A stretch of 64,000 nt of DNA from an uncultured Dokdonia sp. (GTDB lineage: Bacteria; Bacteroidota; Bacteroidia; Flavobacteriales; Flavobacteriaceae). The notes under the pieces were generated by a model that saw only the letters and a program-made list of their open reading frames with translations, did not search any database and was not told the origin of the DNA. Positions 5,263 through 61,384 of the stretch are shown here, piece by piece. The DNA is taken from positions 496,001 to 560,000 of the forward strand of contig NZ_CANMDS010000001.1 in NCBI RefSeq assembly GCF_947496725.1, read 5' to 3'. The position numbers were made by a program, and so were the translations under genes. Numbering within the stretch: the first letter of the stretch is position 1; each line of letters starts with the position of its first letter.

Positions 5263-5276
5263 GCTTTCGCGAAAGC
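5263..5276. repeat. GCTTTCGCGAAAGC palindrome, intergenic copy
   Basis: A perfect 14-bp palindrome extended to 22 bp by flanking TTAC/GTAA. It lies immediately after the ilvA stop codon, in the gap before the bidirectional terminator. One of 11 perfect copies in the window. Confidence 0.95.
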
Positions 5277-5281
5277 GTAAC

Positions 5282-6547
5282 TCAAACCAATAGTTGAAAC
5301 AACTCAGGTTTATCATTAAGATATTCACCAAAGAACTTACGCTTATGCATTCTCTCTACTAGAGGTTCCAGATCTTCTGGAGATTTTATCTCAATACCCA
5401 CAATAGCTGGGCCTTGCTCCCTACTGGTCTTTTTTGAATATTCAAAATAAGTGATATCATCTGTATTACCGAGTACATCTGCCACAAACTCTTTAAGAGC
5501 ACCCGCTCGCTGCGGGAATTTAATAATAAAGTAATGCTTTAACCCTTGATATAAGAGTGCTCGTTCTTTAATCTCTGGAGTTCTGGTAATGTCATTATTA
5601 CTACCACTTACTACACAGGCTATATTCTTACCACGTATCTCCTCTTTAAATTGATCTAAAACTGCGAGAGTAAGTGCTCCTGCAGGTTCTACTACAATGG
5701 CATCTCTATTGTACAGATCTAGTATAGTCTGGCATATTTTACCCTCTGGCACGCTCACAACTTGATCTACTAGCTGCTGGACGATACTAAAGTTGCGCTC
5801 TCCTACTCGTTGTACAGCGGCACCATCTACAAACTTGTCTATCTCTGTTAAGGTGGTATTCTCTTTTTGTAAAAGAGAGTTCATCATCGCAGGCGCTCCT
5901 CCAGGCTCTACGCCTATAATTTTTGTTTTGGGAGAAAGATGATGAAACACACTAGATAATCCCGCGATAAGGCCACCGCCACCTACTGGTACAAAAACAT
6001 AATCCAGAGGCTTTTCTGACTGAGTTACCATCTCAAGCCCTACAGTTGCCTGGCCTTCTATAATTTTTTCATCATCAAAGGGGTGTACAAAGGTTTTGTG
6101 TTGCGATATGCAAGCTTCACTTGCTTTTGCATAAGCATCGTCAAAGGTGTCACCGGTGAGTACAACCTCAACCCAAGTGTCACCAAACATTTGTACCTGC
6201 TCTACCTTTTGTTTTGGAGTAGTTGCAGGCATATAGATGGCCCCTTTTATATGAAGTTTTGCACAACTAAGAGCTACGCCTTGTGCGTGGTTACCAGCAC
6301 TTGCACAAACAATACCTGCTTGCTTCTGCTCATCTGTAAGCGTACTTATTTTATTAAACGCGCCGCGTATTTTATAGCTACGTACCTGTTGTAAGTCCTC
6401 ACGCTTTAAAAACACCTCTGCCTCATACTTTTTTGAGTATGTAAAACTGCGCATAAACGGTGTCTTTGAGACCACTTTGCGCACCCTGTTTGCCGCATCT
6501 GTTACAGATTTGAGTGTGGGTATGTATGTTTTGAGCGTTTCTTCCAT
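5282..6547 (-). CDS. ilvA: Threonine ammonia-lyase (threonine dehydratase), biosynthetic
   Basis: IlvA deaminates L-threonine to 2-oxobutanoate, the first step towards isoleucine. The 421-aa protein has the PLP-binding lysine (K59) in SYKIRGAF and the phosphate-binding GGGG loop at ~189-192. A C-terminal regulatory ACT-like domain occupies ~335-421 (HYFIIKFPQRAGALKEFV), with a single ACT repeat as in the shorter biosynthetic form, which is normally inhibited by isoleucine. It is the last gene of the minus-strand ilvDBNCA operon, 29 bases after ilvC, and is followed by a GCTTTCGCGAAAGC palindrome and a terminator. The assignment as biosynthetic rather than catabolic rests on the ACT domain and the operon. 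Confidence 0.96.
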   Translation of the reverse strand: MEETLKTYIPTLKSVTDAANRVRKVVSKTPFMRSFTYSKKYEAEVFLKREDLQQVRSYKIRGAFNKISTLTDEQKQAGIVCASAGNHAQGVALSCAKLHIKGAIYMPATTPKQKVEQVQMFGDTWVEVVLTGDTFDDAYAKASEACISQHKTFVHPFDDEKIIEGQATVGLEMVTQSEKPLDYVFVPVGGGGLIAGLSSVFHHLSPKTKIIGVEPGGAPAMMNSLLQKENTTLTEIDKFVDGAAVQRVGERNFSIVQQLVDQVVSVPEGKICQTILDLYNRDAIVVEPAGALTLAVLDQFKEEIRGKNIACVVSGSNNDITRTPEIKERALLYQGLKHYFIIKFPQRAGALKEFVADVLGNTDDITYFEYSKKTSREQGPAIVGIEIKSPEDLEPLVERMHKRKFFGEYLNDKPELFQLLV

Positions 6548-6576
6548 AAGTATCCACCGCGAGGTGGCAATAAGTA

Positions 6577-8073
6577 CTAGCTTAGAACAGCTTCTTGCTC
6601 TTCGGTTTTTACTTTTTTCATAGCAACCATTGCTTTACGTAGGGTTGCTCCTATTTCTTCTACAGGGTGGTTACGTATGGCATCATTTACAGCAATGAGC
6701 TCTTGATTATCTACTCCATTATCGTGAGTAAAAGAGATACCTATAATATCTGTATCTACCGTTTTCATAAAGTCTGTAAGGAGTGGTTTACAGGCGTGAT
6801 CAAAAAGATAACAACCATACTCTGCCGTGTCTGAAATAATACGATTCATCTCAAAAAGCTTCTTTCTTGCAATGGTATTTGCAATAAGTGGTGTCTCGTG
6901 TAGTGACTCATAATAAGCACTTTCTTCTATAATACCTGCAGCTGTCATCGTTTCAAACGCTAGCTCTACACCAGCCTTTACCATTGCTACCATAAGCACA
7001 CCGTGGTCAAAATACTCTTGCTCACTTATCTCTTGTGATGTGATTTCTTGCTTTTCAAAATTGGTCTCTCCAGTGGCAGCTCTCCAGGTGTGAAGATTTT
7101 TATCATCTGCAGCCCAGTCTTCCATCATAGTTTTTGAGAAGTGACCAGAGATAATATCATCCATATGCTTCTCAAAAAGCGGTCTCATTATATCCTTAAG
7201 CTCTTCTGATAGGTTATATGCTTTAATCTTAGACGGGTTATCGAGACGATCCATCATATTTGTGATACCACCGTGCTTAAGTGCTTCTGTAATAGTCTCC
7301 CATCCATACTGTATGAGTTTACCTGCATATGCCGGGTCTATACCCTTCTCTACCATTTTATCAAAACAGAGTATCGATCCCGTTTGTAACACACCACATA
7401 AGATGGTTTGCTCGCCCATAAGATCAGACTTTACCTCTGCCACAAAAGAAGATTCTAGTACTCCTGCTCTGTGACCACCTGTAGCCGCTGCATATGCTTT
7501 AGCTTGAGCAAGCCCCTTTCCTTCTGGATCATTATCTGGGTGTACTGCGATAAGTGTAGGTACGCCAAAACCTCTTTTATATTCCTCACGTACCTCAGAC
7601 CCTGGACACTTAGGAGCTACCATAATTACCGTAAGGTCATCACGTACCTGCATCCCTTCTTCTACAATATTAAAACCGTGCGAGTAAGCAAGTGTTGCTC
7701 CTTGCTTCATAAGCGGCATAACTGCTTTTACTACGGCTGTATGCTGCTTGTCTGGAGTAAGGTTTAAAACTAGATCTGCCGTAGGGATTAATTCTTCATA
7801 AGTTCCTACCGTAAAACCATTTGAAGTGGCATTTTTATAAGACTGGCGCTTTTCTGTAATTGCTCCTTCTCTTAGTGCATAAGAAATATCACAGCCGCTA
7901 TCTCTCATATTGAGACCTTGGTTAAGTCCTTGTGCACCGCACCCTACAATCACGATTTTCTTATCTGCAATGGCAGCAATACCATCTTCAAACTCACTGG
8001 CATCCATAAAGCGGCATTTTCCCAGTTGTGATAATTGATCCCTTAGTGGTAATGTGTTAAAATAATTTTTCAT
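6577..8073 (-). CDS. ilvC: Ketol-acid reductoisomerase, class II (long form)
   Basis: IlvC isomerises and reduces acetolactate/acetohydroxybutyrate with NADPH and Mg2+. At 498 aa it is the long, E. coli-like class II enzyme with a duplicated C-terminal knotted domain. The Rossmann motif [17 protein letters not shown] lies at ~44-60, and metal-site acidic residues fall in the [13 protein letters not shown] region. It sits between ilvN (91 bases upstream) and ilvA (29 bases downstream). The upstream gap carries one copy of the 14-bp palindrome. Confidence 0.97.
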
Positions 8074-8103
8074 TGTAATTACATTGCGGAGAATTCTTTT
8101 TTT

Positions 8104-8117
8104 GCTTTCGCGAAAGC
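8104..8117. repeat. GCTTTCGCGAAAGC palindrome between ilvN and ilvC
   Basis: A perfect 14-bp copy in the 91-base gap between ilvN and ilvC, continued on the + strand by GGTCTT. The same GGTC tail is seen at the copies at 19,832 and 29,934. Confidence 0.95.
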
Positions 8118-8164
8118 GGTCTTACCCTCCTAGGTTGTTGGATTAGTTCTTTTATATTAGTTAT

Positions 8165-8725
8165 CTAAGCTTGGGATTTGCCAAAGGCGACCTCATTACT
8201 CTCTTCTATACGTTGTAATAATGTAGAAATAGGCATCTCTGTTTTTGTGACTGCTATTCTACCAGAGCGTGTAAATTGCATTATCCCAAAAGGTTTAAGC
8301 TCTCTATGTACAAGCTCAATCTCTGAGCGTCTTCCTGCTTTTTCAAGCACAAAGAAGTCCTTATTTACAGTCACGATACGCGCCTGACTTTCTTTTATAA
8401 TATTTTGAATTTGAGGCTCTTCAAAAAGTAAATTTGACTTGATCTTAAATAGCGCACTCTCTGTAAAGATGGTTTCCTCATCTGTGTGATAAAATGCCTT
8501 TATCACCTCAACTTGACGTTCTATCTGGCCTTGTATTTTTGCCATTTGCTCTTCTGTGACATTTACTACGATGATAAATTTAAACACATCATCTATCTCA
8601 CTTTCTGAGGCAGAAAGGCTTTCTATATTAATCTTACGACGCTGAAATATAGCCGAAATACGGTTTAATAACCCAATATTATTTTCGGTATATATGTTTA
8701 CGGTAAATGTTTTTACTTCACTCAT
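8165..8725 (-). CDS. ilvN: Acetolactate synthase small (regulatory) subunit
   Basis: The regulatory partner of IlvB, conferring activation and valine feedback. The 186-aa protein begins with an ACT domain (FTVNIYTENNIGLLNRIS, residues ~5-80) containing the NIGLLNRISAIFQRR segment typical of IlvN/IlvH. A C-terminal ALS-small domain follows (ARIVTVNKDFFVLEKAGR). It is longer than E. coli IlvN and close to IlvH-type length. The gene starts 46 bases after ilvB, as expected for co-transcription and subunit balance. Confidence 0.95.
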   Translation of the reverse strand: MSEVKTFTVNIYTENNIGLLNRISAIFQRRKINIESLSASESEIDDVFKFIIVVNVTEEQMAKIQGQIERQVEVIKAFYHTDEETIFTESALFKIKSNLLFEEPQIQNIIKESQARIVTVNKDFFVLEKAGRRSEIELVHRELKPFGIMQFTRSGRIAVTKTEMPISTLLQRIEESNEVAFGKSQA

Positions 8726-8771
8726 AGGTAACCTGTTTATGTATACTTTGTACTGCTGTATATACTGGTTA

Positions 8772-10496: not shown

Positions 10497-10569
10497 AGGT
10501 TGTACGCTTTAAATGTTATTTCTATTCTATCACGCTCGCTAGGCGTCTGTTTATTGTGCTTGTGTTGTG

Positions 10570-12587: not shown

Positions 12588-13961
12588 TTGAAAATTCCAT
12601 CCATTCTTGAAAATCAGCGTGCCTTTTTTGCGACGGGTCAATCTAAGGATATCGCATATAGGAAAGCTGCCTTAGTACGCTTTCGCGAAAGCATAAAAAA
12701 TCACGAGCAAGATATCATAGATGCACTGGCAGCCGATTTTAAAAAACCAGCATTTGAAACAGTTGCTACAGAAATAAGTGTTGTCATTAAAGAAATAAAT
12801 CTCGCCATAAAGGAAATCTGGAAATGGCAGATGCCAAAAAAAGTAAAGGCTTCTTTACTTAATTTTCCCTCTAGTGCCGCCGTACATTATGAGCCCTATG
12901 GTACTGCATTAATCATTGCCCCTTGGAACTATCCCTTTCAACTTGCCGTAGGACCTATGATAGGCGCTATTGCTGCAGGAAATACAGTGGTCTTAAAACC
13001 TAGCGAACTTACACCTAACACAGCAAATCTCTTAGAAAAAATAATTACCGAAGTGTTTGACCCGGCTTATGTAAACATTGTACAAGGTGATAAAGAGGTA
13101 GCCCAAGAACTTCTTAAACAACGCTGGGATTACATATTCTTTACTGGTAGTGTACCCGTAGGAAAAATAATTTACAAAGCAGCCGCAGAACATCTTACAC
13201 CAGTTACCCTAGAACTAGGTGGTAAAAGTCCTTGTGTGGTAGACGAGACAGCGCGTATACAACAAACAGCAAGACGCATTGTATGGGGTAAATTTGTAAA
13301 TGCTGGACAAACCTGTATTGCTCCAGATTATATACTGGTGCACTCCTCTGTTAAAGATGCTTTGCTCAAAGCTATAGATATAGAAATTACTAAGGCTTAT
13401 GGAGCAGATCCAAAGATTTCGAAAGATTTTGCTCGCATAATCAATGATAAAAATTTTGATAGACTCTCTGAGATGCTTGAGAGTGCAACTATTTATAAAG
13501 GTGGACAAACAGATAAAAATGACCTATATATTGCTCCTACCGTACTTAATGATGTATCTGTAAAAGATACTGTAATGCAAGATGAAATCTTTGGTCCCAT
13601 ACTGCCAGTGCTTACTTATGATAGAAAGGAAGAAATCTCACTAGTCATCAATGCTATGGAAAAACCACTGAGTGCGTATGTTTTTTCGCGAAAGCGTTCT
13701 TTTAAAAATTGGTTCAACACAACTTTTTCTTATGGTGGTGGTGCTATGAACGATACACTTATTCATTTTATAAATGATAAGCTCGCCTTTGGCGGTGTGG
13801 GACATTCTGGTATAGGTAGCTATCACGGCGAGAAGAGTTTTTACACTTTTAGTCACGCAAAGTCTGTGGTAAAAAGAGGCACCTGGCTCGATGTACCTGT
13901 AAGATATGCTCCTTATAAAGGCAAATTAAGTGTACTCAAAAAATTTATGAAATGGCTATAA
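12588..13961 (+). CDS. NAD(P)-dependent aldehyde dehydrogenase (ALDH3-like)
   Basis: Oxidises an aldehyde to an acid. The 457-aa length and motif spacing match the ALDH3 / fatty-aldehyde and coniferyl-aldehyde dehydrogenase group. Visible are PWNYPFQLAVGPMIGAIAAG, the cofactor loop FTGSVPVGK, the general-base Glu in ELGGKSP (~208) and the nucleophilic Cys in NAGQTCIAPDY (~242). The start is TTG at 12,588, giving MKIPSILENQRAFF. Two copies of the genome palindrome lie inside the gene: a perfect one encoding RFRES (12,679) and a partial one encoding FSRKR (13,684). It is the only gene in its transcription unit; substrate unknown. Confidence 0.9.
   Translation: MKIPSILENQRAFFATGQSKDIAYRKAALVRFRESIKNHEQDIIDALAADFKKPAFETVATEISVVIKEINLAIKEIWKWQMPKKVKASLLNFPSSAAVHYEPYGTALIIAPWNYPFQLAVGPMIGAIAAGNTVVLKPSELTPNTANLLEKIITEVFDPAYVNIVQGDKEVAQELLKQRWDYIFFTGSVPVGKIIYKAAAEHLTPVTLELGGKSPCVVDETARIQQTARRIVWGKFVNAGQTCIAPDYILVHSSVKDALLKAIDIEITKAYGADPKISKDFARIINDKNFDRLSEMLESATIYKGGQTDKNDLYIAPTVLNDVSVKDTVMQDEIFGPILPVLTYDRKEEISLVINAMEKPLSAYVFSRKRSFKNWFNTTFSYGGGAMNDTLIHFINDKLAFGGVGHSGIGSYHGEKSFYTFSHAKSVVKRGTWLDVPVRYAPYKGKLSVLKKFMKWL
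12679..12692. repeat. GCTTTCGCGAAAGC palindrome within the aldehyde dehydrogenase gene
   Basis: A perfect copy inside coding sequence, read as part of VRFRESIKN. A partial 12-bp copy (TTTCGCGAAAGC) recurs at 13,684-13,695 in the same gene. Confidence 0.95.
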
Positions 13962-13964
13962 CAC

Positions 13965-15214: not shown

Positions 15215-15896
15215 CCTTATCACTTAACAAGTTATACGCCTCTAGAGTAATAGAAGTAAATTGGATTTTATCTCCAGCTTTTATAAGCGCAGGTGATGTT
15301 TTACTTATATCAAATAGGTGTAGAGGAGTTTTACCTATGACGTGCCAGCCACCTGGGCTTTGTTGTGGGTAAATACCCGTTTGAGTACCCCCTATAGCTA
15401 CGCTTCCAGATGCTACGTGTTGTGAAGGAGTTTCCTTTCTATTTAAAAACAACCTGCTATTTAAACCTTCTAAATAAGGGAAGCCTGGCAAAAAACCGAT
15501 AAAATGTACTGGATAGACTGGCGCAGTATGTAGGTTTATAATACTCTTTATATCAAGCCCCACCTTACTAGCATAGTCCTCAAGATCTGGAGCAATTTCT
15601 GGATGATAGCAAACTGGAATTTTATGAATTATCTCGTTAGCTTCTATTGATTCTTTAGAGGAGTTAAGAATTTTATGAATGCGAGTCTCAATACCTTCAT
15701 AATTAAAATGTACTGGATTTATAGACTTTACAAGTATCTCGTTATAGGTGGTCACCACCTCAACGTTAGTGAGCACCTGTAATTGCGCTTTCTTAGCTAG
15801 TAGCCATTCTAATAACTCGTGAGACGCTTTACTGTCTACCTGTATGAGTATCGCAAATTCTCCTAGCCGTGTTATAGCATATTGATAGGTATTCAT
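15207..15896 (-). CDS. pxpB: 5-oxoprolinase subunit B (KipI family)
   Basis: The 229-aa partner of PxpC. The conserved HFIGFLPGFPYLEGL segment is followed by the GSVAIGGTQTGIYPQQSPGG signature. In Bacillus the homologue KipI also inhibits sporulation kinase KinA. Here the full pxpABC set argues for 5-oxoproline recycling. Its start overlaps the stop of pxpA by one base, and its end overlaps pxpC. Confidence 0.9.
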   Translation of the reverse strand: MNTYQYAITRLGEFAILIQVDSKASHELLEWLLAKKAQLQVLTNVEVVTTYNEILVKSINPVHFNYEGIETRIHKILNSSKESIEANEIIHKIPVCYHPEIAPDLEDYASKVGLDIKSIINLHTAPVYPVHFIGFLPGFPYLEGLNSRLFLNRKETPSQHVASGSVAIGGTQTGIYPQQSPGGWHVIGKTPLHLFDISKTSPALIKAGDKIQFTSITLEAYNLLSDKDE

Positions 15897-16627
15897 TATA
15901 TGATTTGTATTCCTTGTTTGGTCAACTCAGTATGTAAATTGCGTACTATTTCCAAAGCATTTTCTGTATCCCCGTGCACACATATCGTGTCTATTTTAAA
16001 AGAGAGATTTTTACCATCTCGAGTGGTGAGTATTTCATCCTTGACCATAGACAAGACGTGCGCAAGAACTTGCTTAGTATCGTGCAGTACACTCCCGTAC
16101 TCGCTGCGTGAGACTAAGCTATAATCTGAATTATATGCTCTATCTGCAAACCCTTCTACAATGGTTTTTAAACGGAGCCTTGCAAGTCTAGCAATAAGAG
16201 AACCGTATGGTACGTAAAGTGCAAGGTTTTTATCTATACTGTGCACGGTCTCAATAACTATCATCGCTGTCTCCTCGTCTCTAGCTGCTTTGTTATATAA
16301 TGCACCGTGAGGCTTAATGTGGTGTAATGGTAAGCCACTTTCTTCGGCGAGGTTTTTAAGTGTTGTTATTTGATTTCTTAAGGACTCTTGGAGTGTTTTT
16401 TTAGAAATATCCATAGGTAATCTCCCAAAATTCTCTTTATCAGGATAGCTAGGGTGAGCACCTATTTTTACGTTATACGCTTTCGCGAAAGCGAGAACCT
16501 CACGCATCGTTTTTTCATCACCCGCGTGACCACCGCAGGCTATGTTACAAGAACTTATAAGAGGCATTAATAAAGCTTCATTACCAATACCTTCTCCCAC
16601 ATCACTATTAATATCTATGGAAATCAT
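15896..16627 (-). CDS. pxpA: 5-oxoprolinase subunit A (LamB/YcsF family)
   Basis: The 243-aa LamB/YcsF protein starts with the family motif IDINSDVGEGIGNEALLMP and contains SCNIACGGHAGD and IGAHPSYPDKENFGR. A perfect genome palindrome at 16,479 encodes VLAFAKAYN within it. It overlaps the transporter gene by four bases and pxpB by one, a tight translationally coupled operon. Function as in other PxpABC complexes: ATP-dependent opening of 5-oxo-L-proline, a damage product of glutamine/glutamate. Confidence 0.93.
   Translation of the reverse strand: MISIDINSDVGEGIGNEALLMPLISSCNIACGGHAGDEKTMREVLAFAKAYNVKIGAHPSYPDKENFGRLPMDISKKTLQESLRNQITTLKNLAEESGLPLHHIKPHGALYNKAARDEETAMIVIETVHSIDKNLALYVPYGSLIARLARLRLKTIVEGFADRAYNSDYSLVSRSEYGSVLHDTKQVLAHVLSMVKDEILTTRDGKNLSFKIDTICVHGDTENALEIVRNLHTELTKQGIQII
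16479..16492. repeat. GCTTTCGCGAAAGC palindrome within pxpA
   Basis: A perfect 14-bp copy inside coding sequence; the minus-strand frame reads it as AFAKA. Confidence 0.95.
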
Positions 16628-19582: not shown

Positions 19583-20285
19583 CTACCCCAACCAGCCATC
19601 TCTATCTAAACTTCTATACTGTATTGCTTCAGATATATGTGTGCCAGTTACGACTTTTGAAGCTTCGAGATCTGCAATAGTTCTTGCAACTTTTAAAATA
19701 CGATCATATGCTCGTGCAGAAAGATTTAATCGTTCCATAGCCATTTTAAGTAAATCTTTAGATGCGTCATCTAGCGCACAATATTTACGTATTTGCTTCA
19801 CATTCATCTGCGCGTTGTAGTTTGTTTTCTCGCTTTCGCGAAAGCGGTCTACCTGCAACTCTCTCGCAGCTGTCACACGTTTACGTATATCTGCACTAGA
19901 CTCTGCCTTAGTCTCATCACTCAGTTTTTCAAAAGGAACTGGTGTCACTTCAATATGAATGTCAATACGGTCTAATAATGGTCCAGATATTTTACTCAAA
20001 TATCGCTGCATCTCTGCAGGGCTACTTGTTACAGGTGCATCTGGATCATTAAAATAACCTCCTGGACTAGGATTCATACTTGCCACAAGCATAAAACTAG
20101 ATGGATAAGTAACTGTAAATCGTGCTCTAGAAATAGTTACCTCTCGATCTTCTAGCGGTTGTCTCATTACTTCAAGAACAGACCTTTTAAACTCTGGTAA
20201 TTCATCCAAAAATAAAACACCATTATGAGAAAGCGATATCTCACCAGGCTGTGGGTAAGCCCCACCTCCCACTAACGCAACATCT
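19583..20285 (-). pseudogene. comM: comM (yifB) 3' half, separated from its 5' half by the island
   Basis: Encodes the C-terminal half of a YifB/ComM Mg-chelatase-like AAA+ ATPase: DVALVGGGAYPQPGEISL, NGVLFLDELPEF, then the C-terminal Mg-chelatase domain ending RDGWLG. Intact relatives have about 510 residues; this piece supplies about 230. The matching 5' half is at 46,289-47,140. The frame runs on into the island to a TTG at 20,323, giving a possible 246-aa truncated product whose first ~13 residues are island-encoded and which lacks the Walker A loop. A perfect palindrome at 19,832 encodes DRFRES. ComM helps branch migration in natural transformation; that function is presumably lost. Confidence 0.92.
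19832..19845. repeat. GCTTTCGCGAAAGC palindrome within comM
   Basis: A perfect copy inside coding sequence, followed on the + strand by GGTCTA. Confidence 0.95.
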
Positions 20286-29818: not shown

Positions 29819-31030
29819 TTAGCTTTGCCCTGATGAGGAATTTTTAGATTTTTTATGAGGTAAGGCTAACGAGACTATAAACTTTTCTGCCTCTTTAACT
29901 AGACCTTTATCACCCATATATGTTTCTTCTAACGCTTTCGCGAAAGCGGTCTTTAAATCTGTCTTTTCAGTAATCACATCTTGGATACTTGTAATGGCTA
30001 TATGTGTATAGCCAGAGCGACTTTCTTTGTTAGCACGAGTTTTATTAAAGCGAGAAATAATCGGTTTAAAGTGATTAAATAATGCATCTACATTATTTGT
30101 GTTTCTAATGGTTTTATTCAGCTCGTTGCGCACTTCTAGGGTGAACCATAACTTATTATCTTTAAGAATAGATACACTTCTAGGTACAAAAAAATGTAAT
30201 GGTATAGTAGATTCTTTGTTCGTATACCAACTACCTACCTTCTCGTAACCATATTCAGAAAATACATCTGCTATCTGCTGGTCTAAAAACTTAGCTGTTT
30301 GTGCTACTTTGTTTTGAATTTCTTCTACTTTATTACGGTGTTCTGTAATAGTCAAGGCTATTTTATTGTATTCTGGTGCGCTCATCTGTGTTTGATAATG
30401 TGAGTCAATGGTCTTGATGTATTCTTTTAGGTATAGTAATCCCTCAATAGTTTTTACATCACCTACATTGAGTTGATTTTGAACTTCATTAATCCATTCT
30501 CTATGGGTAATGTTGAGGTAGATTACTTTTGTGCCCTTTACTGTGACTTCAATCTTCTCTTTCTTAGTAGGGAATAGCGTAAGCACAATACCTATGATAT
30601 TTTCACCACAGTACTTTCTAGTGTGTTCCCAATAGGCTTTTAATGGATTTACCAGATTGTGATACAGTTTGTTTTCAATAATGACTCCCCACTTTTCTTC
30701 ACCTAAAATCGATATGTCAATACGTTTTTTTGTTTCCGTCTCAGCATAGGCAGTAGTGTCTTCTGTAAGTACATTAAACGCTCCGCTAAAAAATTCTAGA
30801 AATGTAGTATCTGCGTAATCTTTTGCTTCGATTATGCTTTTTAAGCTATCAAAGAAAACTGATTGTAAGCCATGAGATTCGTTGATGTCAAGAAAATAAG
30901 CAAGGATTCTAGAATTTATAGTTTCCTTATTACGAACTCCTAAAATATCAAACAGATTTTTAGGAGCTTGCTCAGGTAAGTCTGGCAGGCGTAGTGCTAC
31001 ATCTTCTATGAGTATTTCTAAATCTTGCAT
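29819..31030 (-). CDS. PD-(D/E)XK nuclease superfamily protein (PF14281-like)
   Basis: A 403-aa protein with the N-terminal NKETINSRILAYFLDINESHG signature and a nuclease core RIDISILGEEKWGVIIENKLY (~103-123; Asp, Glu and Lys of PD-(D/E)XK). Proteins of this type occur often beside type I R-M genes, but their role is unclear; a second effector nuclease or an anti-restriction check is possible. The start overlaps the hsdM stop by one base and hsdS follows after 15 bases. A perfect genome palindrome at 29,934 encodes TAFAKALEE, the only such copy in the island. Confidence 0.75.
   Translation of the reverse strand: MQDLEILIEDVALRLPDLPEQAPKNLFDILGVRNKETINSRILAYFLDINESHGLQSVFFDSLKSIIEAKDYADTTFLEFFSGAFNVLTEDTTAYAETETKKRIDISILGEEKWGVIIENKLYHNLVNPLKAYWEHTRKYCGENIIGIVLTLFPTKKEKIEVTVKGTKVIYLNITHREWINEVQNQLNVGDVKTIEGLLYLKEYIKTIDSHYQTQMSAPEYNKIALTITEHRNKVEEIQNKVAQTAKFLDQQIADVFSEYGYEKVGSWYTNKESTIPLHFFVPRSVSILKDNKLWFTLEVRNELNKTIRNTNNVDALFNHFKPIISRFNKTRANKESRSGYTHIAITSIQDVITEKTDLKTAFAKALEETYMGDKGLVKEAEKFIVSLALPHKKSKNSSSGQS
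29934..29947. repeat. GCTTTCGCGAAAGC palindrome inside the island
   Basis: A perfect copy in the PF14281-like nuclease gene, with the GGTC tail on the + strand. It is the only perfect copy in the 26-kb island. Confidence 0.95.
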
Positions 31031-47716: not shown

Positions 47717-49594
47717 CTACTCTATTAAAATACTAAACTCAATCTTAGAATTATGGAATACTGAGTGTGTTTGCTTAGTAAAATCTTCTTCCTTTGCTTC
47801 AAAGATATTATCTACATACGTCTGAGGATTCAAATCTATAAGTGGAAACCAAGTACTTTGTATCTGCACCTGTAACTTGTGTCCCTTTTTAAAAGTATGA
47901 AGCACATCTTGTAACTTAACAAAAACCTCATCTTTTTCTCCCGCTACAAATGGTTGAGGACGCTCAAAACTTTTTCTAAAACGACCACGCATTACCTCAC
48001 TACGCACCATCTGGTGGTAACCAGCCATCTCTACTCCTTCTTCTGTTTCTTCAGTGTTAGGGACATCATCTGGATATACATCTATAATTTTTACAATCCA
48101 GTCTGCAGATGTTCCGGTGGTTGCTACATTAAGCTTTGCCATTATATCACCTACAAGAGTAAGATCATCTTCTAGCACAGGCGTTTCATAAACAAGTACA
48201 TCCTCACGAGCCGCAGCAAATCTCTGATCGTCAGACATATATTTACGTGGTGTAAATACCATCTTTTTACCCTCTGCATATGGTACAGGGTTTGCTGGAT
48301 CACTTACAAACTTTTCTGCATCATATTTTGTAGAAGGACTTCCCGTAAGAGCATTGTCTTTTCCTAAAAAGAAAGAAGCTTTCATTGATTTTTTAGGTGG
48401 CCATTGCTCAAAGGAGTTCCACTCTTTACTTCCTGAGTCAAAAACGTGTGCTTCTGGTAATCCTGTTGCTCCACCTTTATCACCTCCTTTTAAGAAGTGA
48501 TTAAAGAATTTTGTCTCAATATCTCTTTGAAAATAGTCTGAAATATTATCGCCAAAATAAACATTACCTACAGCCTGTCTCTTTTTGTTACGTGCCCAGT
48601 CTCCGTGACTCCAAGGTCCAAAAACAACCGTATTGTAATTATTACTGCGTTTCTCGATGTTTTTGTACGTCTCCCAAGGTCCGTATAAATCTTCGGCATC
48701 ATATAGTCCTCCTACAACCATTACGGCTGGCTCTATATTTTCTAGGTGCTGTATAAGCCCTCTAGATTGCCAGAATTCATCATAGTTAGGGTGCTCTTTT
48801 AATTGCGTCCAGAACTCATTAGTTTCATCATAATATTTATCTAAGTTTGATAAAGGACCTGTTTTTAAGAAAAAGTCAAACTGGTCATCACTATCTAAAT
48901 CTGGAAAATCATACCAAGACTCTGTAGTAGGTGCATCCTTCTGATATCCAAAAACCGCCGTAGCTCTCCAGTAACTTAACAAGTAAGCTCCGTTATGGTG
49001 AAAGTCATCAAAAAAGAAATCACCTATACACGCTTGTGGTGAGGCTGCTTTAAGCGCAGGGTGTCCACTCAAGAGCGAGTAGGTTGCATAAAAACCTGGG
49101 TAAGAAATTCCCCAAGTACCTACATTACCATTATTATTTTCTACATTATTAACAAGCCACTCTATAGTATCATAAGTATCACTTGCCTCGTCTACCTGAG
49201 TACCTGTTTTATTAGGTATAAAAGCGCGCATATTATCATACTTACCCTCACTCATCCAGCGACCACGTACATCTTGATATACGATAATATTACCCTCTTG
49301 CATTAAATAAGCATTAGGTGCTATCGCTGTGCGCATCTTTCCTTCTCCATAAGGTTTAGAGCTATAAGGCGTGCGCTGCATTAAAATAGGATACGTTTTT
49401 GAGGTATCCTTTGGCGAGTAAATAGTAGTATGAAGATGTACGCCATCTCTCATTTTGATGCGTACTTCTTGTTTATTATAATGCTCAGAAACCTGATAAG
49501 TAGTGTCTAAGATTGTTTCTCGTGATTGTGCAGATGACGCTTTCGCGAAAGCAAAAAAGCATACTACACAAAGTAGTTTGAAGATGTTATTCAT
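47717..49594 (-). CDS. Exported CocE/NonD (X-Pro dipeptidyl-peptidase S15) hydrolase
   Basis: A 625-aa secreted serine hydrolase: signal peptide MNNIFKLLCVVCFFAFAKAS followed by SAQS, an alpha/beta-hydrolase core with the nucleophile in GTWGISYPGFYATYS (Ser ~165), and a C-terminal jelly-roll (PepX_C, ~380-620). Substrates in the family are X-Pro peptides, acyl-amino acids or esters. The perfect palindrome at 49,539 encodes AFAKA within the signal peptide. It directly follows dsbD with no gap, so it is the last gene of the tilS-dsbD unit. Confidence 0.9.
   Translation of the reverse strand: MNNIFKLLCVVCFFAFAKASSAQSRETILDTTYQVSEHYNKQEVRIKMRDGVHLHTTIYSPKDTSKTYPILMQRTPYSSKPYGEGKMRTAIAPNAYLMQEGNIIVYQDVRGRWMSEGKYDNMRAFIPNKTGTQVDEASDTYDTIEWLVNNVENNNGNVGTWGISYPGFYATYSLLSGHPALKAASPQACIGDFFFDDFHHNGAYLLSYWRATAVFGYQKDAPTTESWYDFPDLDSDDQFDFFLKTGPLSNLDKYYDETNEFWTQLKEHPNYDEFWQSRGLIQHLENIEPAVMVVGGLYDAEDLYGPWETYKNIEKRSNNYNTVVFGPWSHGDWARNKKRQAVGNVYFGDNISDYFQRDIETKFFNHFLKGGDKGGATGLPEAHVFDSGSKEWNSFEQWPPKKSMKASFFLGKDNALTGSPSTKYDAEKFVSDPANPVPYAEGKKMVFTPRKYMSDDQRFAAAREDVLVYETPVLEDDLTLVGDIMAKLNVATTGTSADWIVKIIDVYPDDVPNTEETEEGVEMAGYHQMVRSEVMRGRFRKSFERPQPFVAGEKDEVFVKLQDVLHTFKKGHKLQVQIQSTWFPLIDLNPQTYVDNIFEAKEEDFTKQTHSVFHNSKIEFSILIE
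49539..49552. repeat. GCTTTCGCGAAAGC palindrome in a signal-peptide coding region
   Basis: A perfect copy, read as AFAKA at the end of the hydrophobic core of the S15-type hydrolase signal. Confidence 0.95.
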
Positions 49595-51610: not shown

Positions 51611-52914
51611 ATAGTTGTAAATTTTATCATTTTTTGTGTGTCATCAGCTACCTTAAAACGGTCATCTGCTCTGTGACCTATCACCCACACAATATCTTTA
51701 CCATTACAAAGCAGCCACACGTGCTCCTTTGCTATCAAAGATACCTTTTCATCTTTTAAATACTTACTCAACTTCTTTTTTCCTTTCATCCCAAAAGGAT
51801 AGAAAAAATCACCTTCTTCCCACTTTCTTATCGTAAGCGGAAATGTCAACTTTGTCGCATCTACCACTATCTCCTTTCTTGAGGTGCTCTTAAAAGTATC
51901 GCTCGTCTCAAGCCTTAATTTACCAAAGTCACCTTCCATCATACTTACACCAGATTCCCAGGTATAAGTTGTAGGTTGTGCAACGGCATTTTCTGTAAGT
52001 AATAGCACGTCTCTATCTTTTACTAAACGATGCGTTTCAGAAAATATTTGCTTGCCAGATTGTGCATCAAGCAGCTCATAAACATCACTCCACGCTGTAA
52101 AGTTATAAGGCTGTAGTAACTGGTATAAAACCGCCTGTGGCTCCTCGTGTTTCTTTAGCGCTGGTACGTCTATTACTTGTAGCCCATCTCGTGTTGCCAC
52201 ATACGCCTTCCTTAAAGACGCTGTGTAGATTGCTAGTAACTTATCTGTTTGATGTAAATGTTGCTGCGTGGTCTGTAAACCCTGCAAAGTAGCTGGTTGC
52301 GCTGCCACCATACTCGGTATCGCGTGATGCCTCAAGTGGTTGCGTACGTAGTTATCTGTTGCATTACTGCTATCCTCACGCCACGCTATTTTTTCTTGTA
52401 ATGCATATTCTTTTATACGCTTTCGCGAAAAAGGCAACAGTGGTCTCACAACCCGTCCGTTTATTTCTGGGATGCCAGTAAGACCTTTAACACCCGTACC
52501 GCGACCTAAGTTTATGAGAAACGTTTCTAACTCATCATTGAGATGATGGGCAGTTAAGATATAATCCAAACCTTCGGTAGCCGAAAGTTCTTTAAACCAC
52601 TGATAACGCAGCTCTCTTGCGGCGATCTGGGTTGATGTTTTTTCAATTTTCGCGTAAGCTGAAGTATCAAAACTCTTTATGTAAATAGGAATGTTATGAA
52701 GCTTGCAATAGCTTTCTACAAAAGCCTGATCACCATCACTCTCTACTCCTCTTAAATTAAAATTGCAGTGTGCTACACGTATCGTAAGGCCTGCCTGACG
52801 ACACAGTAACAATAAGAGCATACTATCAAGCCCACCACTTACTGTGACGAGGATCTTACTATCAAGAAGAAATGGTAAATCTTTTGCGATATGGTGCTTA
52901 AAATCCTCAAGCAT
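51607..52914 (-). CDS. tilS: tRNA(Ile)-lysidine synthetase
   Basis: TilS modifies C34 of the CAU-anticodon tRNA(Ile) to lysidine so that it reads AUA. The 435-aa protein has the PP-loop motif VSGGLDSMLLLLLC (~25-38), the HHLNDELETFLINLGRGTG segment, and the C-terminal TilS domain (~350-430: TIRKWEEGDFFYPFGMKGKK). ATG at 52,914 is preferred over an in-frame GTG at 52,920. A near-perfect palindrome (GCTTTCGCGAAA at 52,419) encodes FSRKR. Essential gene, as normal for the family. Confidence 0.95.
   Translation of the reverse strand: MLEDFKHHIAKDLPFLLDSKILVTVSGGLDSMLLLLLCRQAGLTIRVAHCNFNLRGVESDGDQAFVESYCKLHNIPIYIKSFDTSAYAKIEKTSTQIAARELRYQWFKELSATEGLDYILTAHHLNDELETFLINLGRGTGVKGLTGIPEINGRVVRPLLPFSRKRIKEYALQEKIAWREDSSNATDNYVRNHLRHHAIPSMVAAQPATLQGLQTTQQHLHQTDKLLAIYTASLRKAYVATRDGLQVIDVPALKKHEEPQAVLYQLLQPYNFTAWSDVYELLDAQSGKQIFSETHRLVKDRDVLLLTENAVAQPTTYTWESGVSMMEGDFGKLRLETSDTFKSTSRKEIVVDATKLTFPLTIRKWEEGDFFYPFGMKGKKKLSKYLKDEKVSLIAKEHVWLLCNGKDIVWVIGHRADDRFKVADDTQKMIKFTTI
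52419..52430. repeat. 12-base partial palindrome within tilS
   Basis: GCTTTCGCGAAA, then AAGG in place of the final GC; one of two partial copies. Confidence 0.7.
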
Positions 52915-54896: not shown

Positions 54897-54919
54897 TCAC
54901 AATAGCTGTAACAGATATG

Positions 54920-54959
54920 AAGGTTGTTCGTTTACTCTATAAACGAACAACCTTTTTTT
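54920..54959 (+). terminator. Terminator whose T-tract runs into the next start codon
   Basis: A 15-bp perfect stem AAGGTTGTTCGTTTA / TAAACGAACAACCTT with loop CTCTA, then six T. The ATG of the Coa1-like gene follows at 54,960 without a gap. Confidence 0.88.
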
Positions 54960-55388: not shown

Positions 55389-56777
55389 TTAACCCAACTC
55401 CTTAAAATACCTCCTCGCTTCCTTCATCACTCTTGGTGCGAGATACAGGGTTGCAATCATTGTTGGTATTGCCATTATGGCAAAAAATCCGTCTATCAAG
55501 TTAATCATCATACTAAGTGATGTGGTCGCTCCTATCAAAATACTCGCGATGTAAGCGATGTTATAGTACTTCTTGTTGTGCGCTCCAAAAAGGAAACTCA
55601 AGCACTTGGTCCCGTAGTAACTATATGAGAAAAGCGATGAGATACTAAACACGGCGATGCACAATAATAATATGTATTTACCTGCGGGTGATAACGCTTT
55701 CGCGAAAGCGGAAGCCGTAAGCGTAACTCCATTTGCATCTGTCGTTTGCCACACGTCTGTTACCAAAATTGCAAGCGCAGTAAGTGTACACACGACAATG
55801 GTATCTATTGCAGGGCCCAGCATTGCCACCAGTCCTTCACGTATGGGTTGTACAGTTTTTGCAGCGCCGTGCGCCATAGGTGCCGTACCTACACCAGCCT
55901 CGTTTGAAAAAGCTCCACGTTTTATACCTAATAAAATCAATCCACCTACCACGCCACCCAGCAGTTTATCTCCCGTATAAAAATCGGCAGAGAAGGCATC
56001 TGTAAATATGAGACCCAGATATTTAGGAACTACATCTATGTTTACAAAGAGTATAGCCATTACTGCTACAAAGTAAATAAAGACCATCGCAGGCACTAGT
56101 CTTGACGCAGTTTTAGAAATACGATCGAGTCCGCCTAGTATGACAACTGATGTGATAGCAACAAGCACAAGCCCGATAATCAAGTTAGAGGTAAAACCCA
56201 CCTCAACTCCCTGAGGTACGAGCAATATATCATTTACCGCCTGTGTGAGTTGGTTTACATTAAAAACCGGCAATGCTCCCACGAGTCCCGCAATGCTGAA
56301 GATTACGGCAAGCGGTTTCCAAGCTTTACCCATTCCTTCTGTGATAAAATACATAGGTCCTCCCTGTGTTTTGCCCTCACTATCTTTACCTCTATACATT
56401 ATGGCAAGTGAGCCTGTAAAAAACTTTGTTGCCATACCCACAATAGCACTCATCCACATCCAGAAAACAGCACCTGGACCTCCTATGGCAATCGCTACTG
56501 CCACACCTGCGATGTTACCCATACCTACAGTTGCACTAAGCGCTGTAGTGAGCGCCTGAAAGTGTGTAATCTCTCCTTCATCATTTTCTCCATCGTACTT
56601 TCCTCGCAAGACTGCAACAGCGTGACCTAGATATCTAAATGGCAAAAATCTCGAATAGATGAGCAAAAACAGACCGCCACCTATAAGTAAGCACACGAGC
56701 GGGATTCCCCACATAGCGCTAGAAAAATCTGCTATAAGTTCATTAGCCTGATCGTAAAATGATGGTTGTGCTTGCAT
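55389..56777 (-). CDS. Alanine/glycine:cation symporter (AGCS family)
   Basis: A 462-aa inner-membrane transporter with about 11 helices. Family motifs are visible: TALSATVGMGNIAGVAVAI, GGPGAVFWMWMSAIVGM and KRGAFSNEAGVGTAPMAHGA. It should take up alanine or glycine with Na+. ATG at 56,777 (MQAQPSFYDQ) is chosen over an in-frame TTG at 56,807. A perfect palindrome at 55,696 encodes SAFAKAL. It is convergent with the Coa1-like gene, with no space between. Confidence 0.93.
   Translation of the reverse strand: MQAQPSFYDQANELIADFSSAMWGIPLVCLLIGGGLFLLIYSRFLPFRYLGHAVAVLRGKYDGENDEGEITHFQALTTALSATVGMGNIAGVAVAIAIGGPGAVFWMWMSAIVGMATKFFTGSLAIMYRGKDSEGKTQGGPMYFITEGMGKAWKPLAVIFSIAGLVGALPVFNVNQLTQAVNDILLVPQGVEVGFTSNLIIGLVLVAITSVVILGGLDRISKTASRLVPAMVFIYFVAVMAILFVNIDVVPKYLGLIFTDAFSADFYTGDKLLGGVVGGLILLGIKRGAFSNEAGVGTAPMAHGAAKTVQPIREGLVAMLGPAIDTIVVCTLTALAILVTDVWQTTDANGVTLTASAFAKALSPAGKYILLLCIAVFSISSLFSYSYYGTKCLSFLFGAHNKKYYNIAYIASILIGATTSLSMMINLIDGFFAIMAIPTMIATLYLAPRVMKEARRYFKELG
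55696..55709. repeat. GCTTTCGCGAAAGC palindrome in the symporter gene
   Basis: A perfect copy inside coding sequence, read as AFAKA. Confidence 0.95.
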
Positions 56778-56883
56778 ACAAGATCTATTTATATGGTGAA
56801 GTAACAAAAATTAAGAGCAGTTTACCAAAACGTTCACATATATTTTTGAACAGGCATTTGTTTTCGTCACTAAATTTACTCTT

Positions 56884-57963: not shown

Positions 57964-57972
57964 TATAAGTAC

Positions 57973-57986
57973 GCTTTCGCGAAAGC
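57973..57986. repeat. GCTTTCGCGAAAGC palindrome after the topoisomerase gene
   Basis: A perfect copy extended by TAC/GTA on both sides (GTACGCTTTCGCGAAAGCGT and AC), 9 bases after the stop codon and before the terminator. Confidence 0.95.
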
Positions 57987-57993
57987 GTACCAC

Positions 57994-58026
57994 AAAAAAA
58001 GCCCCTTCGTAACGAAAGGGCTTTTA
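57994..58026. terminator. Terminator between topoisomerase IB and purC
   Basis: GCCCC-TTCGT / ACGAAAGGGGC with one unpaired base, A-run before and T-run after. It probably serves both convergent genes. Confidence 0.8.
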
Positions 58027-58046
58027 GTTTTTAGAATGCTATGCTG

Positions 58047-58994
58047 TTATTTTGCAAGGTATGCGAGCACGTTTTTCTCGATACGCTCTTGAATGTTTGA
58101 AGTATCCGCTTTCGCGAAAGCGTCACCTGTAATATTCTCGTACAACTCAATATATCTTTCTGATACAGTCTCTATGTACTCATCTGTCATCTCAGGCACC
58201 GTTTGCCCCTCTAGACCTTGAAAGTTATTTGAGATAAGCCACTGTCTCACAAACTCTTTAGATAGTTGTTTTTGAGCTTCGCCAGCTGTTTGACGCTCCT
58301 CATAACCTTCTGCATAGAAGTAACGAGAAGAGTCTGGAGTATGTATCTCATCTATGAGAACAATCTCACCATCTGCGGTTTTTCCAAATTCATACTTAGT
58401 ATCTACCAATATAAGTCCTCTAGATGCTGCAATCTCACTTCCTCTTTGAAAAAGCTTGCGTGTGTAATCTTCTAGAACGAGGTAATCCTCTTCCGAAACG
58501 ATGTTCTTTTTAATAATATCTTCTCTTGAGATATCCTCATCGTGGTCACCCATCTCTGCCTTAGTAGCTGGCGTGATGATAGGCTCTGGAAAGGCATCAT
58601 TTTCTTTCATTCCTTCTGGCATCGCAACACCACAAAGTATTCTCCTACCTGCTTTATACTCTCTAGCCGCGTGCCCAGACATATAGCCACGTATTACCAT
58701 CTCCACTTTAAAAGGCTCACATCGCTTCCCTATTGCCACATTAGGATCTGGAGTAGCCACGAGCCAGTTAGGCACAAGGTCTTCTGTATCCTTCATCATT
58801 TTAGTAGCAATCTGATTTAAGATTTGTCCTTTGAAAGGAATTCCCTTAGGCATTACAACGTCAAAGGCGCTTAGCCTATCTGTTGCAACCATAAGTAATA
58901 AATCATCTTCGAGTGTGTAGACTTCTCTCACTTTACCCTTATAGATAGATTTCTGACCAGGGAAGTTAAAATTAGTGTCTGTAATAGTGTTCAC
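58047..58994 (-). CDS. purC: SAICAR synthase (phosphoribosylaminoimidazole-succinocarboxamide synthase)
   Basis: PurC joins aspartate to CAIR in purine synthesis, using ATP. The 315-aa protein has [26 protein letters not shown]-type opening ([17 protein letters not shown]), the active-site [14 protein letters not shown]-like segment, and [20 protein letters not shown] with [11 protein letters not shown]. It is the long eukaryote-like form found in Bacteroidota, not the ~240-aa E. coli form. Start is GTG at 58,994. A perfect palindrome at 58,108 encodes DAFAKADT near the C-terminus. Confidence 0.95.
58108..58121. repeat. GCTTTCGCGAAAGC palindrome within purC
   Basis: A perfect copy inside coding sequence, read as AFAKA; only 122 bases from the copy at 57,986. 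Confidence 0.95.
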
Positions 58995-59112
58995 TATAGG
59001 TTGGTTTGAACGGTTATATTAATCCTTTTGAGGTATTAAAACAACACGATTAGTTATTCTTCAAAAGTAAAATTCTGAATGATATATTACGAATTAAAAG
59101 TATAGAAATATA

Positions 59113-60069
59113 TTAGTCGTTTCTATTTTCTATCTCGCGATAAGCCGCAATCATTTTCTTTACTAGAGGATGGCGCACCACATCTTTATCATCAAGATAA
59201 ATCATCCCTACTCCTTTTACGGTTTTGAGGATAAGTAATGCTTCCTTAAGACCACTGGTGACACGTCTAGGTAAATCTATCTGCCCTGGATCTCCAGTAA
59301 TCATAAACTTTGCATTACGCCCCATACGAGTAAGGAACATCTTCATCTGGGCGTGTGTTGTGTTTTGAGCTTCATCAAGTATCACAAAAGCATTATCAAG
59401 TGTACGACCACGCATAAAAGCCATAGGTGCAATTTGTATCACTCCTTTCTCAATAAAGGTCTCTAGCTTTTCACTAGGTATCATATCCCTAAGGGCATCA
59501 TAAAGTGGTTGCATATAAGGGTCGAGCTTCTCCTTCATATCACCAGGCAGAAAACCTAAATTTTCTCCAGCCTCTACAGCAGGTCTCGTGAGTATAATAC
59601 GTTTTACTCGCTTCTCTTTAAGGGCTTTTACGGCTAGTGCAACGCCTACATATGTTTTACCAGTACCGGCAGGACCTATAGCAAAGGTTAGGTCATTCTT
59701 TTTTGAAAGCTCTACAAGTTTACGCTGGTTTGCCGTTTGTGGTTTTATGAGTTTACCACTCACGCCGTGTACAAGTACATCGCCACTCTCTACAGGCGTC
59801 TCATAATCTTCTTTACTCACACTTGTAAGTACGCGCTCTATTGAGTTTTCATCTATCTTATTATACTTCCCAAAGTGATCCATTAGCATCGTCATACGCC
59901 TATCAAACTCTTCTAGAAGATCTTCATCTCCGTAAGCTTTAATTTTATTACCTCTAGCTACTATCTTCAGTTTAGGAAAATACTGCTTAAGGAGTTCTAT
60001 ATTAGCATTGCGCTGTCCAAAAAATTCGCGCGGATTGATTTCTGAGAGTTCTAAGATTAATTCGTTCAA
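59113..60069 (-). CDS. PhoH-family ATPase
   Basis: A 318-aa PhoH-like (PhoL type) cytoplasmic ATPase. An N-terminal KH-like region (~20-70, VARGNKIKAYGDEDLLEEFD) precedes Walker A GPAGTGKTYVGVALAV (~131) and Walker B NAFVILDEAQNTT (~225), then KMFLTRMGRNAKFMITGDPG. The family acts in RNA metabolism, often with YbeY, but no partner gene is next to it. Start is TTG at 60,069 (MNELILEL). Confidence 0.92.
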   Translation of the reverse strand: MNELILELSEINPREFFGQRNANIELLKQYFPKLKIVARGNKIKAYGDEDLLEEFDRRMTMLMDHFGKYNKIDENSIERVLTSVSKEDYETPVESGDVLVHGVSGKLIKPQTANQRKLVELSKKNDLTFAIGPAGTGKTYVGVALAVKALKEKRVKRIILTRPAVEAGENLGFLPGDMKEKLDPYMQPLYDALRDMIPSEKLETFIEKGVIQIAPMAFMRGRTLDNAFVILDEAQNTTHAQMKMFLTRMGRNAKFMITGDPGQIDLPRRVTSGLKEALLILKTVKGVGMIYLDDKDVVRHPLVKKMIAAYREIENRND

Positions 60070-60254
60070 AAGGCAGAAGGATTTAGTGAGTTACGTCCGT
60101 AAAATATTTTAGCTTTGTTTACTACTAAAATACGTCTTTTTTAATCAGCAAAACACGAGTTCAACACCCTGTTAACGATTAAATAATAAACAATGATGGT
60201 TTATAACTATTTTAAACAAGTAACTCTTTAAGAAAACAAAGCACAGTACTTTAT

Positions 60255-61091
60255 ATGAAATTAATCACTCTTACAACAGACTATGGCGAGAAAGATCCTT
60301 TTGCAGGAGCCGTAAAAGGAGCGATTTACTCAGAGCTAGAGGATGTGCGTATTGTAGACATATCGCACTCTGTATCGCCTTTTCATCTTATGGAGGCAGC
60401 TTATATTATTCAAAATGCGTATCAAAATTTCCCGAAAGGGTCCATACACGTTATAGGTGTAGACAGCGAGCTCACACCAGAAACAAACCACATAGCCGTA
60501 AAACTAGATGGTCATTATTTTATATGTGCAAATAATGGTATCATATCGCTACTCACAAAAGATATCGTACCAGAAGAAAAAGTAGAGATAAACATACACG
60601 ACCGCACACTTACTAACTTTACTGTACTAGATGTGTTTGTAAAGACGGCCTGCCATATCGCACGCGGCGGCACCCTTGGTGTGATAGGTAAAAACATAGA
60701 TAACATAAGACAACTTACAGGTATCGCACCTGTTATAAACACGGCTCGCAACCAGATATCTGGTAACGTCATTTATATAGATAACTATGGTAATGTGGTA
60801 AGTAACATCACAAAAAAACTATTTGACGAAGTGGGCAAAGGTCGCAGCTTTAAGCTTGAAGCACGTGGTGCAGACATCACAAAAATCTATAAGCAGTATA
60901 GCGATGCCATAAACTTTGACATAGAAAAGTCTAAGCGAGAAGAGGAAGGCAAGAAACTAGCCGTTTTTAACTCTGGTGGTTACATCGAGCTTGCTATTTA
61001 TAAAAGTAATCCAAGCACTGTGGGAAGTGCTGCTAGCCTCTTTGGCCTCAACTATAGAGACACGGTAATGATAAATTTTACAGATAAATGA
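60255..61091 (+). CDS. SAM hydroxide adenosyltransferase (DUF62 family)
   Basis: A 278-aa enzyme of the chlorinase/fluorinase-related family that, in most bacteria, hydrolyses S-adenosylmethionine to adenosine and methionine. The N-terminal domain has LTTDYGEKDPFAGAVKGAI, IVDISHSVSPFHLMEAAYI and VIGVDSELTPE; the C-terminal barrel has GNVIYIDNYGNVVSNITKK. The DxH triad-type residues of the hydroxide-using group look present. The last codon overlaps the start of the next gene (ATGA), so translation is coupled. Confidence 0.9.
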   Translation: MKLITLTTDYGEKDPFAGAVKGAIYSELEDVRIVDISHSVSPFHLMEAAYIIQNAYQNFPKGSIHVIGVDSELTPETNHIAVKLDGHYFICANNGIISLLTKDIVPEEKVEINIHDRTLTNFTVLDVFVKTACHIARGGTLGVIGKNIDNIRQLTGIAPVINTARNQISGNVIYIDNYGNVVSNITKKLFDEVGKGRSFKLEARGADITKIYKQYSDAINFDIEKSKREEEGKKLAVFNSGGYIELAIYKSNPSTVGSAASLFGLNYRDTVMINFTDK

Positions 61092-61384
61092 TCGTAAGAC
61101 TGGTGAAATTACGCTTTCGCGAAAGCGAGATACCCTCTTTTTTATCCAACTTTGAGAAGGTAAAAAATGATATACGTGCTTTTAAGGGTTGTCTCTACTT
61201 AGAGCTACTGCAAGATGCCGAAGATCCTTCTATATTCTTTACACACAGTCACTGGGAATCTAACGAGGCTCTGCAGGGTTACCGCAACTCAGATCTCTTT
61301 AAAGGCATATGGGCCAACACAAAACCAAAATTTTCTGGAAAACCAGAAGCCTGGAGTACAAATTCTCTTGATAAACAAGATTAG
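61088..61384 (+). CDS. Antibiotic biosynthesis monooxygenase (ABM)-like small protein
   Basis: A 98-aa ferredoxin-like fold protein: RLVKLRFRESEIPSFLSNFE, GCLYLELLQDAEDPSIFFTH and SHWESNEALQGYRNS fit the ABM/quinol monooxygenase family. The palindrome at 61,113 encodes LRFRESE. Coupled to the SAM-hydrolase gene by a four-base overlap and convergent, with a four-base overlap, with the AraC gene. Substrate unknown. Confidence 0.85.
   Translation: MIVRLVKLRFRESEIPSFLSNFEKVKNDIRAFKGCLYLELLQDAEDPSIFFTHSHWESNEALQGYRNSDLFKGIWANTKPKFSGKPEAWSTNSLDKQD
61113..61126. repeat. GCTTTCGCGAAAGC palindrome within the ABM gene
   Basis: A perfect copy near the start of the gene, read as RFRES. Confidence 0.95.

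Follow-up and report, generated by a model that had tools for sequence, protein, structure and literature searches.

Introduction

The highly iterated palindrome HIP1 (GCGATCGC) was described in 1995, and a passage of a 2015 paper states that little was known of its significance (PMC4390886). Chi of Escherichia coli occurs once per 5 kb, as stated in part of PMC8022716. Here we analyze a further recurring DNA signal, the 14-bp palindrome GCTTTCGCGAAAGC, in a stretch of 64,000 nucleotides (hereafter the window) from an uncultured Dokdonia sp. of the Flavobacteriaceae (assembly GCF_947496725.1, contig NZ_CANMDS010000001.1, positions 496,001 to 560,000). We conclude with near certainty that it is a lineage-specific DNA site of three genera of this family, conserved in place far beyond its surroundings, spaced more evenly than by chance and embedded in a wider element.

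In the terms that PMC4390886 partly sets out for HIP1, both sequences are palindromes that recur in large numbers in the genomes of a clade and whose function is unsettled. Unlike HIP1, the present motif extends over 14–20 bp instead of 8, carries strand-asymmetric arms, belongs to a different phylum and shows no common methyltransferase in the two families searched; a 464-kb sample of the window's genome contains a single copy of HIP1 itself, against 0.7 expected. E. coli Chi lies in G/T-rich islands, and the motif shares such a G/T-rich neighborhood with it, along with a frequency of about one per few kb (here 3.6 kb) and scarcity in foreign-looking DNA. High density, conservation in place and even spacing are features in common with DNA uptake sequences (DUS) and uptake signal sequences (USS). 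The sites of Noc, SlmA and ParB (parS) are likewise palindromic, those of Noc and parS with TTTC/GAAA arms, but they number in the tens, whereas the motif reaches about 900 copies, and the spacing of their centers differs. Among open-licence PMC papers the string GCTTTCGCGAAAGC was not found, no paper on the motif turned up, and TTTCGCGAAA appeared only in papers whose titles are unrelated.

The motif adds an independent iterated palindrome in a phylum other than that of HIP1. It has almost double the length, is strongly conserved in place and regularly spaced, and possesses a defined wider architecture. It is also distributed in an on/off manner between related genera, and since the named strain Dokdonia sinensis SH27 carries it, its reader protein and function could be sought.

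Abundance and Lineage Distribution

The original prediction, made from the letters of the window, had listed 11 perfect copies of GCTTTCGCGAAAGC and two 12-base copies; our recount returned the same numbers, with all 13 coordinates correct. Matches with at most two mismatches number 15 in the window, whereas 100 dinucleotide shuffles averaged 0.15 such matches and never exceeded 3. The whole genome (3,291,590 bases in 121 contigs) holds 905 perfect copies, or about one per 3.6 kb, while the expectation is 0.0047 copies under a zero-order model and 0.0054 under an order-2 Markov model, and the reversed-letter control is absent genome-wide. The supposition that such a 14-mer should be essentially missing by chance is therefore borne out (about 0.005 expected against 905 observed), and the counts over the genome and its relatives are far from random. 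The prediction, which put the density at about one per 3.5 kb, is thus correct and understates the case. The likeness to HIP1 that had been proposed holds for the pattern, namely a palindrome that recurs both in genes and between them and is conserved in place. We consider GCTTTCGCGAAAGC a real, lineage-restricted, HIP1-style signal.

In a search of 59 relatives, all 18 genomes of Dokdonia, the genus of the window's genome that also includes D. sinensis, contain 369–905 copies. The remaining 41 comprise one genome of the genus labelled g11 with 578 copies, one genome with 6 and 39 with none. Among the 40 genomes behind the named loci, D. sinensis has 857 copies, 11 have 1–4 and 28 lack the motif. 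The count in D. sinensis and the positions of its first copies coincide with those of G011, a genome placed in the genus of the window. D. sinensis also gives the best match to the window's ketol-acid reductoisomerase (93%) among the named genomes compared, from which records very close to the window may be missing. The same division appears in 397 genomes of the family: six carry at least 408 copies, 74 carry 1–19, and 317 carry none. These six rich genomes belong to Dokdonia (two), g11 (three, with 578, 664 and 609 copies) and g210, whose single genome has 408. Genomes of the genera g96 and g71 in this family sample, with 16, 19 and 17 copies, lie between the rich and empty classes. In the class, with 395 genomes searched, the 16-mer CGCTTTCGCGAAAGCG is abundant only in the window's genome, which has 711 copies; it occurs once or twice in six others. 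Other genera showed no long palindrome of their own (at least 12 bases and three copies) in the 74 further named loci, out of 79, that reach 12 kb, a sample that covers only 12–21 kb per genome.

In the RpoB tree, g210 is the sister of Dokdonia (99/97), and unconstrained trees place g11 apart from Dokdonia and g210. Forcing all ten motif-rich genomes into one clade is not rejected for RpoB (p = 0.089 in the approximately unbiased test), and for AddB the constrained tree is no worse (p = 0.554). These trees were built from partial proteins (about 770 and 1091 residues), with genomes G156 and G029 set as negatives despite their 16 and 6 copies. A single origin of the motif in the three rich genera is thus possible as far as these protein trees indicate. 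Horizontal transfer of an AddB specificity was considered as well and is not needed, as one-clade trees are acceptable for both proteins.

Conservation in Place and Spacing

Comparison of the window's genome (G000) with genome G016 shows 81 of 83 aligned sites intact, as opposed to 1048 of 1856 control 14-mers; when shorter flanks were used, 80 of 82 sites were intact. Per base, only 2 of 1162 positions differ at the sites, while the controls differ by 8.7% in intergenic and 5.1% in coding DNA. Against the genome G007, 34 of 41 sites are intact, and 35 of 38 in the reverse direction, whereas the controls reach only 192 of 875 and 182 of 783 (22–23%). Intergenic copies that could be aligned are identical in 37 of 38 cases, and in 38 of 38 in reverse, at an intergenic divergence of 7–9%. 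The alignable share of the 131 sites in the analyzed 464 kb (83 for G016 and 41 for G007) reflects in part the incomplete overlap of the compared stretches; fast-changing places are under-sampled because BLAST requires flanking similarity.

Differences were seen in 13 site alignments over both directions, three with G016 and ten with G007. All three of the former are single substitutions. Three of the ten keep the 12-base core in place, and two represent one region before ilvC, where both species possess a site at positions 60–71 bp apart; for the other five, the nearest perfect site lies 1.1–1.7 kb away. Three differing coding sites between G000 and G007 align free of gaps, and the other differing alignments are gappy and allow no verdict. 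A transposed repeat was rejected as an explanation, with a simple 14-base insertion in none of the 13 alignments, several intergenic ones being too gappy to judge.

The sites are distributed along the chromosome more evenly than expected. The coefficient of variation of the gaps is 0.50, 0.54, 0.67 and 0.71 in four genomes, compared with about 0.98 for a uniform null, and was matched by 0, 0, 0 and 5 of 2000 uniform placements. Gaps shorter than 1 kb number 6, 2, 1 and 2, where about 31, 22, 18 and 12 are expected. Genes, called with our own script and not a standard gene finder, cover 89% of the DNA; 70 of the 131 sites fall inside called genes and 61 are intergenic, most densely between convergent genes. 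Within genes the reading frame AFAKA is the commonest (42 of 70).

Anatomy of the Core and Arms

Perfect copies and those with one or two mismatches number 131, 4 and 17 in 464 kb of the window's genome, 74, 18 and 21 in 329 kb of D. sinensis, and 51, 6 and 3 in 260 kb of g11. By these counts, near copies are scarce in the window's genome and less so in D. sinensis. Most of the near copies in Dokdonia lack the outer GC at one of their two ends. For TTTCGCGAAA in four Dokdonia genomes, with orthologues kept in, both outer GC are present 404 times, one 70 times and neither 0 times. The motif behaves as a whole palindrome, solitary half-sites being rare. A directional half-site reading was tried and rejected, with half-sites few and at most about threefold over expectation in small counts.

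In Dokdonia the flanks lengthen the palindrome to a preferred 20-bp form, TACGCTTTCGCGAAAGCGTA, with C at 91%, A at 62% and T at 74% in the outward direction; the flanks in g11 differ from these in having C or T as the second base. Beyond this, about 25 bp 5' of the palindrome on each strand are G/T-rich and poor in C (5–12% compared with 20%), and slight traces of the bias reach to about 80 bp. The G/T bias of the arms is also found in D. sinensis and g11, and in coding and intergenic copies alike. A period-3 T signal in the g11 arms fits third codon positions and was not used. Substitutions in the arms lean toward G<->T and A<->C exchanges relative to the control, with odds ratios of 1.4–1.7 (p = 0.0015, 0.0005, 0.024 and 0.00009 in four overlapping comparisons). 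Neighboring bases in the arms are close to independent of each other, as suits contact with a single strand. Past the core, complementarity between the arms does not exceed that of shuffled partners, and folding is unremarkable; a hairpin or terminator was rejected on these grounds.

Candidate Mechanism and Rival Explanations

We tentatively favor a repair landmark that resembles Chi but acts in both directions and to which a dimeric protein binds, as the foremost of several candidates but a doubtful one. It would amount to a previously undescribed landmark system evolved in a group of Flavobacteriaceae genera, conceivable though less likely than not as a whole, in which a duplex-read palindrome with G/T arms stands every 3–4 kb and a dimeric reader governs DNA repair, making it a palindromic counterpart of Chi. 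A homodimeric protein would read the palindrome and thereby mark the DNA in cis. An AddAB-type end-resecting enzyme, coming from either side of a break, would be switched or stopped on reaching the occupied site, after which RecA would load just behind that site, on the 3'-ended strand rich in G and T. Given a preference of RecA for G/T-rich DNA, strand-specific arms oriented alike on both strands are what a bidirectional Chi-like site would need. Under this mechanism, one site per few kb would suffice and a second nearby would be redundant. The symmetric core, seldom found as isolated halves, speaks for a dimer that binds duplex DNA, and the regular spacing together with the one relocation within a region argues for a regional role instead of a gene-regulatory one. 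All 30 genomes tried encode a PF12705 protein of AddB size, and 25 of them, the window's genome included, have a second PF12705 match about 5 kb off that is AddA-like in size. The motif is probably maintained by selection.

Several observations weigh against such a Chi-like landmark. To our knowledge, known Chi sites are 5–8 nt long, non-palindromic and read on one strand; the motif differs from Chi in being palindromic and hence non-polar, in its 14 bp, in its few isolated half-sites and in its even spacing. Isolated half-sites (CGAAAGCG) outside cores amount to only 4, 6, 5, 15 and 5, with 2.4, 2.1, 3.5, 9.2 and 2.1 expected. The arm bias is weak in g210 (C at 0.188 against a background of 0.24, from 10 sites), and the letters of the arms are unconserved, changing slightly faster than the control (6.7% vs 5.6% and 22% vs 18%); combined with the biased substitutions, this points to composition being kept and not the letters. 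The three g11 genomes, all motif-rich, have no second PF12705 match near the first, which counts against the mechanism through the missing AddA-like neighbor. Every genome tried has the AddB-like protein, but not every one has the motif, and no binding protein was found.

Uptake and chromosome architecture are nearly as likely as the Chi-like mechanism, and sequence evidence leaves recombination, segregation and uptake unseparated. As a self-recognition signal of the DUS/USS kind, the motif would make site-bearing fragments preferred in DNA uptake, and recombination would then spread and conserve the site. Such a role, possible but somewhat unlikely, agrees with the even spacing, the substitution-type change at alignable coding sites, the clade-specific sequence and the scarcity of sites in the foreign-looking island of the window. 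Competence is also known in the family: passages of PMC8459023 and PMC7965970 class Riemerella in it and describe this genus as naturally competent, R. anatipestifer needing ComEC and DprA along with proteins that have no homologues among known uptake machineries, while R. columbina prefers its own DNA. The pilus/secretion ATPase PF00437 exceeds the cut-off in 4 of 10 motif-rich genomes, that of the window not being one of them, a further difference from DUS/USS, although to judge from Riemerella it may be dispensable; ComEC and DprA were not searched. Unlike the motif, known uptake sequences are non-palindromic; an uptake signal does not predict the G/T arms, and copies occur in phage-type records too. 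A dimeric nucleoid or segregation protein bound every few kb, which we also regard as somewhat unlikely, would account for a symmetric site with few isolated halves, for the even spacing and for about 60–70 bp of biased sequence; a strand-asymmetric, single-base composition of the arms is no obvious signal of duplex shape.

The remaining two explanations are far less probable. A HIP1-type site tied to an orphan DNA methyltransferase is suggested by an iterated palindrome with an inner TCGCGA, given the link of HIP1 to methyltransferases made in part of PMC4390886. Of 11 motif-rich genomes, 6 lack a PF00145 match, that of the window among them, other methyltransferase families not having been searched genome-wide, and PF01555 is above the cut-off in none of seven Dokdonia genomes, though present in G027 and G270. 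With neither family matched in the window's genome and TCGCGA near expectation outside the sites, the methylation signal that the original prediction had offered beside recombination, segregation and uptake is disfavored and, judged on the two families searched, the least likely of these options; we regard it as very improbable. An element acting at the RNA level (terminator or hairpin) or a mobile repeat resembling repetitive extragenic palindromic (REP) elements, which we find hardly credible, would fit the perfect inverted repeat and the 61 intergenic sites with their concentration between convergent genes. It is at odds with the 70 sites inside called genes, with the lack of arm complementarity past the core and the unremarkable folding, and with the differences between genomes, which are gap-free at three coding sites in G000/G007 and all single substitutions in G000/G016.

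Copies in Low-Count Genomes and Phage Records

Of 19 compared stretches around low-count copies, 12, from 10 genomes, share one common island at about 70–95% identity (L325–L331, L333, L334, L338, L341 and L342). The island is of a metal-resistance type, and the motif often stands in matching surroundings. Its bearers, which include Cellulophaga baltica and Galbibacter mesophilus, all lie outside the three motif-rich genera. Nine proteins scanned in L325 comprise an RND pump, an outer-membrane efflux protein, a multicopper oxidase, two P-type ATPases, an ArsP-type permease, an AraC-type regulator and two others. Transfer from motif-rich donors would be the simplest reading of the island copies, and the motif may act as a tag on DNA that came by way of motif-rich hosts.

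The motif also appears in at least 120 stretches of viral contigs. Among the matches listed, 21 of 132 flanked sites pass a G/T-arm cut of our own, set without a null, and all of them are among the 53 sites in stretches below 45% GC. The 18 viral records counted for 22 loci have 1–7 copies each, some records being pieces of one virus. Stretch L175 (record G866) contains Mu-type transposition genes, and L139 a baseplate gene. Record G865 has 7 copies in 37 kb, and since its first two sites lie at positions identical to those in L175, the two probably represent the same phage. Two Nonlabens phages have 0 copies in 35.0 and 34.0 kb.

Sites in the Window

The sites of the window, to which no strand is assigned, follow the genome in falling both between and within genes. 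Perfect copies at 5263..5276 and 57973..57986 are intergenic with convergent genes on either side, and that at 8104..8117 lies between ilvC (6577-8073) and an open reading frame (ORF) at 8165-8725; this is the site whose G007 counterpart is 60–71 bp off. ORF 12588-13961 (+) contains a perfect site at 12679..12692 in the frame RFRES and the 12-base one-sided site TTTCGCGAAAGC at 13684..13695. The frame RFRES recurs at 19832..19845 in ORF 19583-20272 (-) and at 61113..61126 in ORF 61088-61384 (+). The frame AFAKA is used at 16479..16492 (ORF 15896-16627, -), at 55696..55709 (ORF 55389-56777, -) and at 58108..58121 (ORF 58047-58994, -). The second 12-base one-sided site, GCTTTCGCGAAA, is located at 52419..52430 in ORF 51607-52914 (-). 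Contrary to the general avoidance of close pairs, the sites at 57973 and 58108 are only 135 bp apart.

Positions 20401-46244 form a low-GC, defense-like island with HsdR-, HsdS- and HsdM-type genes, a PDDEXK_4 protein, a UvrD-type helicase and a large serine recombinase, and with one perfect copy of the motif. This copy, at 29934..29947 in the PDDEXK_4 ORF 29819-31030 (-) and in the frame AFAKA, is the sole one between 19,845 and 49,539, where the type I restriction, PD-(D/E)XK, helicase and serine recombinase genes are situated, indicating that foreign-looking DNA is poor in sites. The next perfect site, 49539..49552, falls in the N-terminal part of a CocE/NonD hydrolase (ORF 47717-49594, -), again in the frame AFAKA. 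Judged by eye, such in-frame AFAKA copies near protein N-termini, here at 49539 and in L325 near 7431, stand at what resemble the ends of signal peptides.

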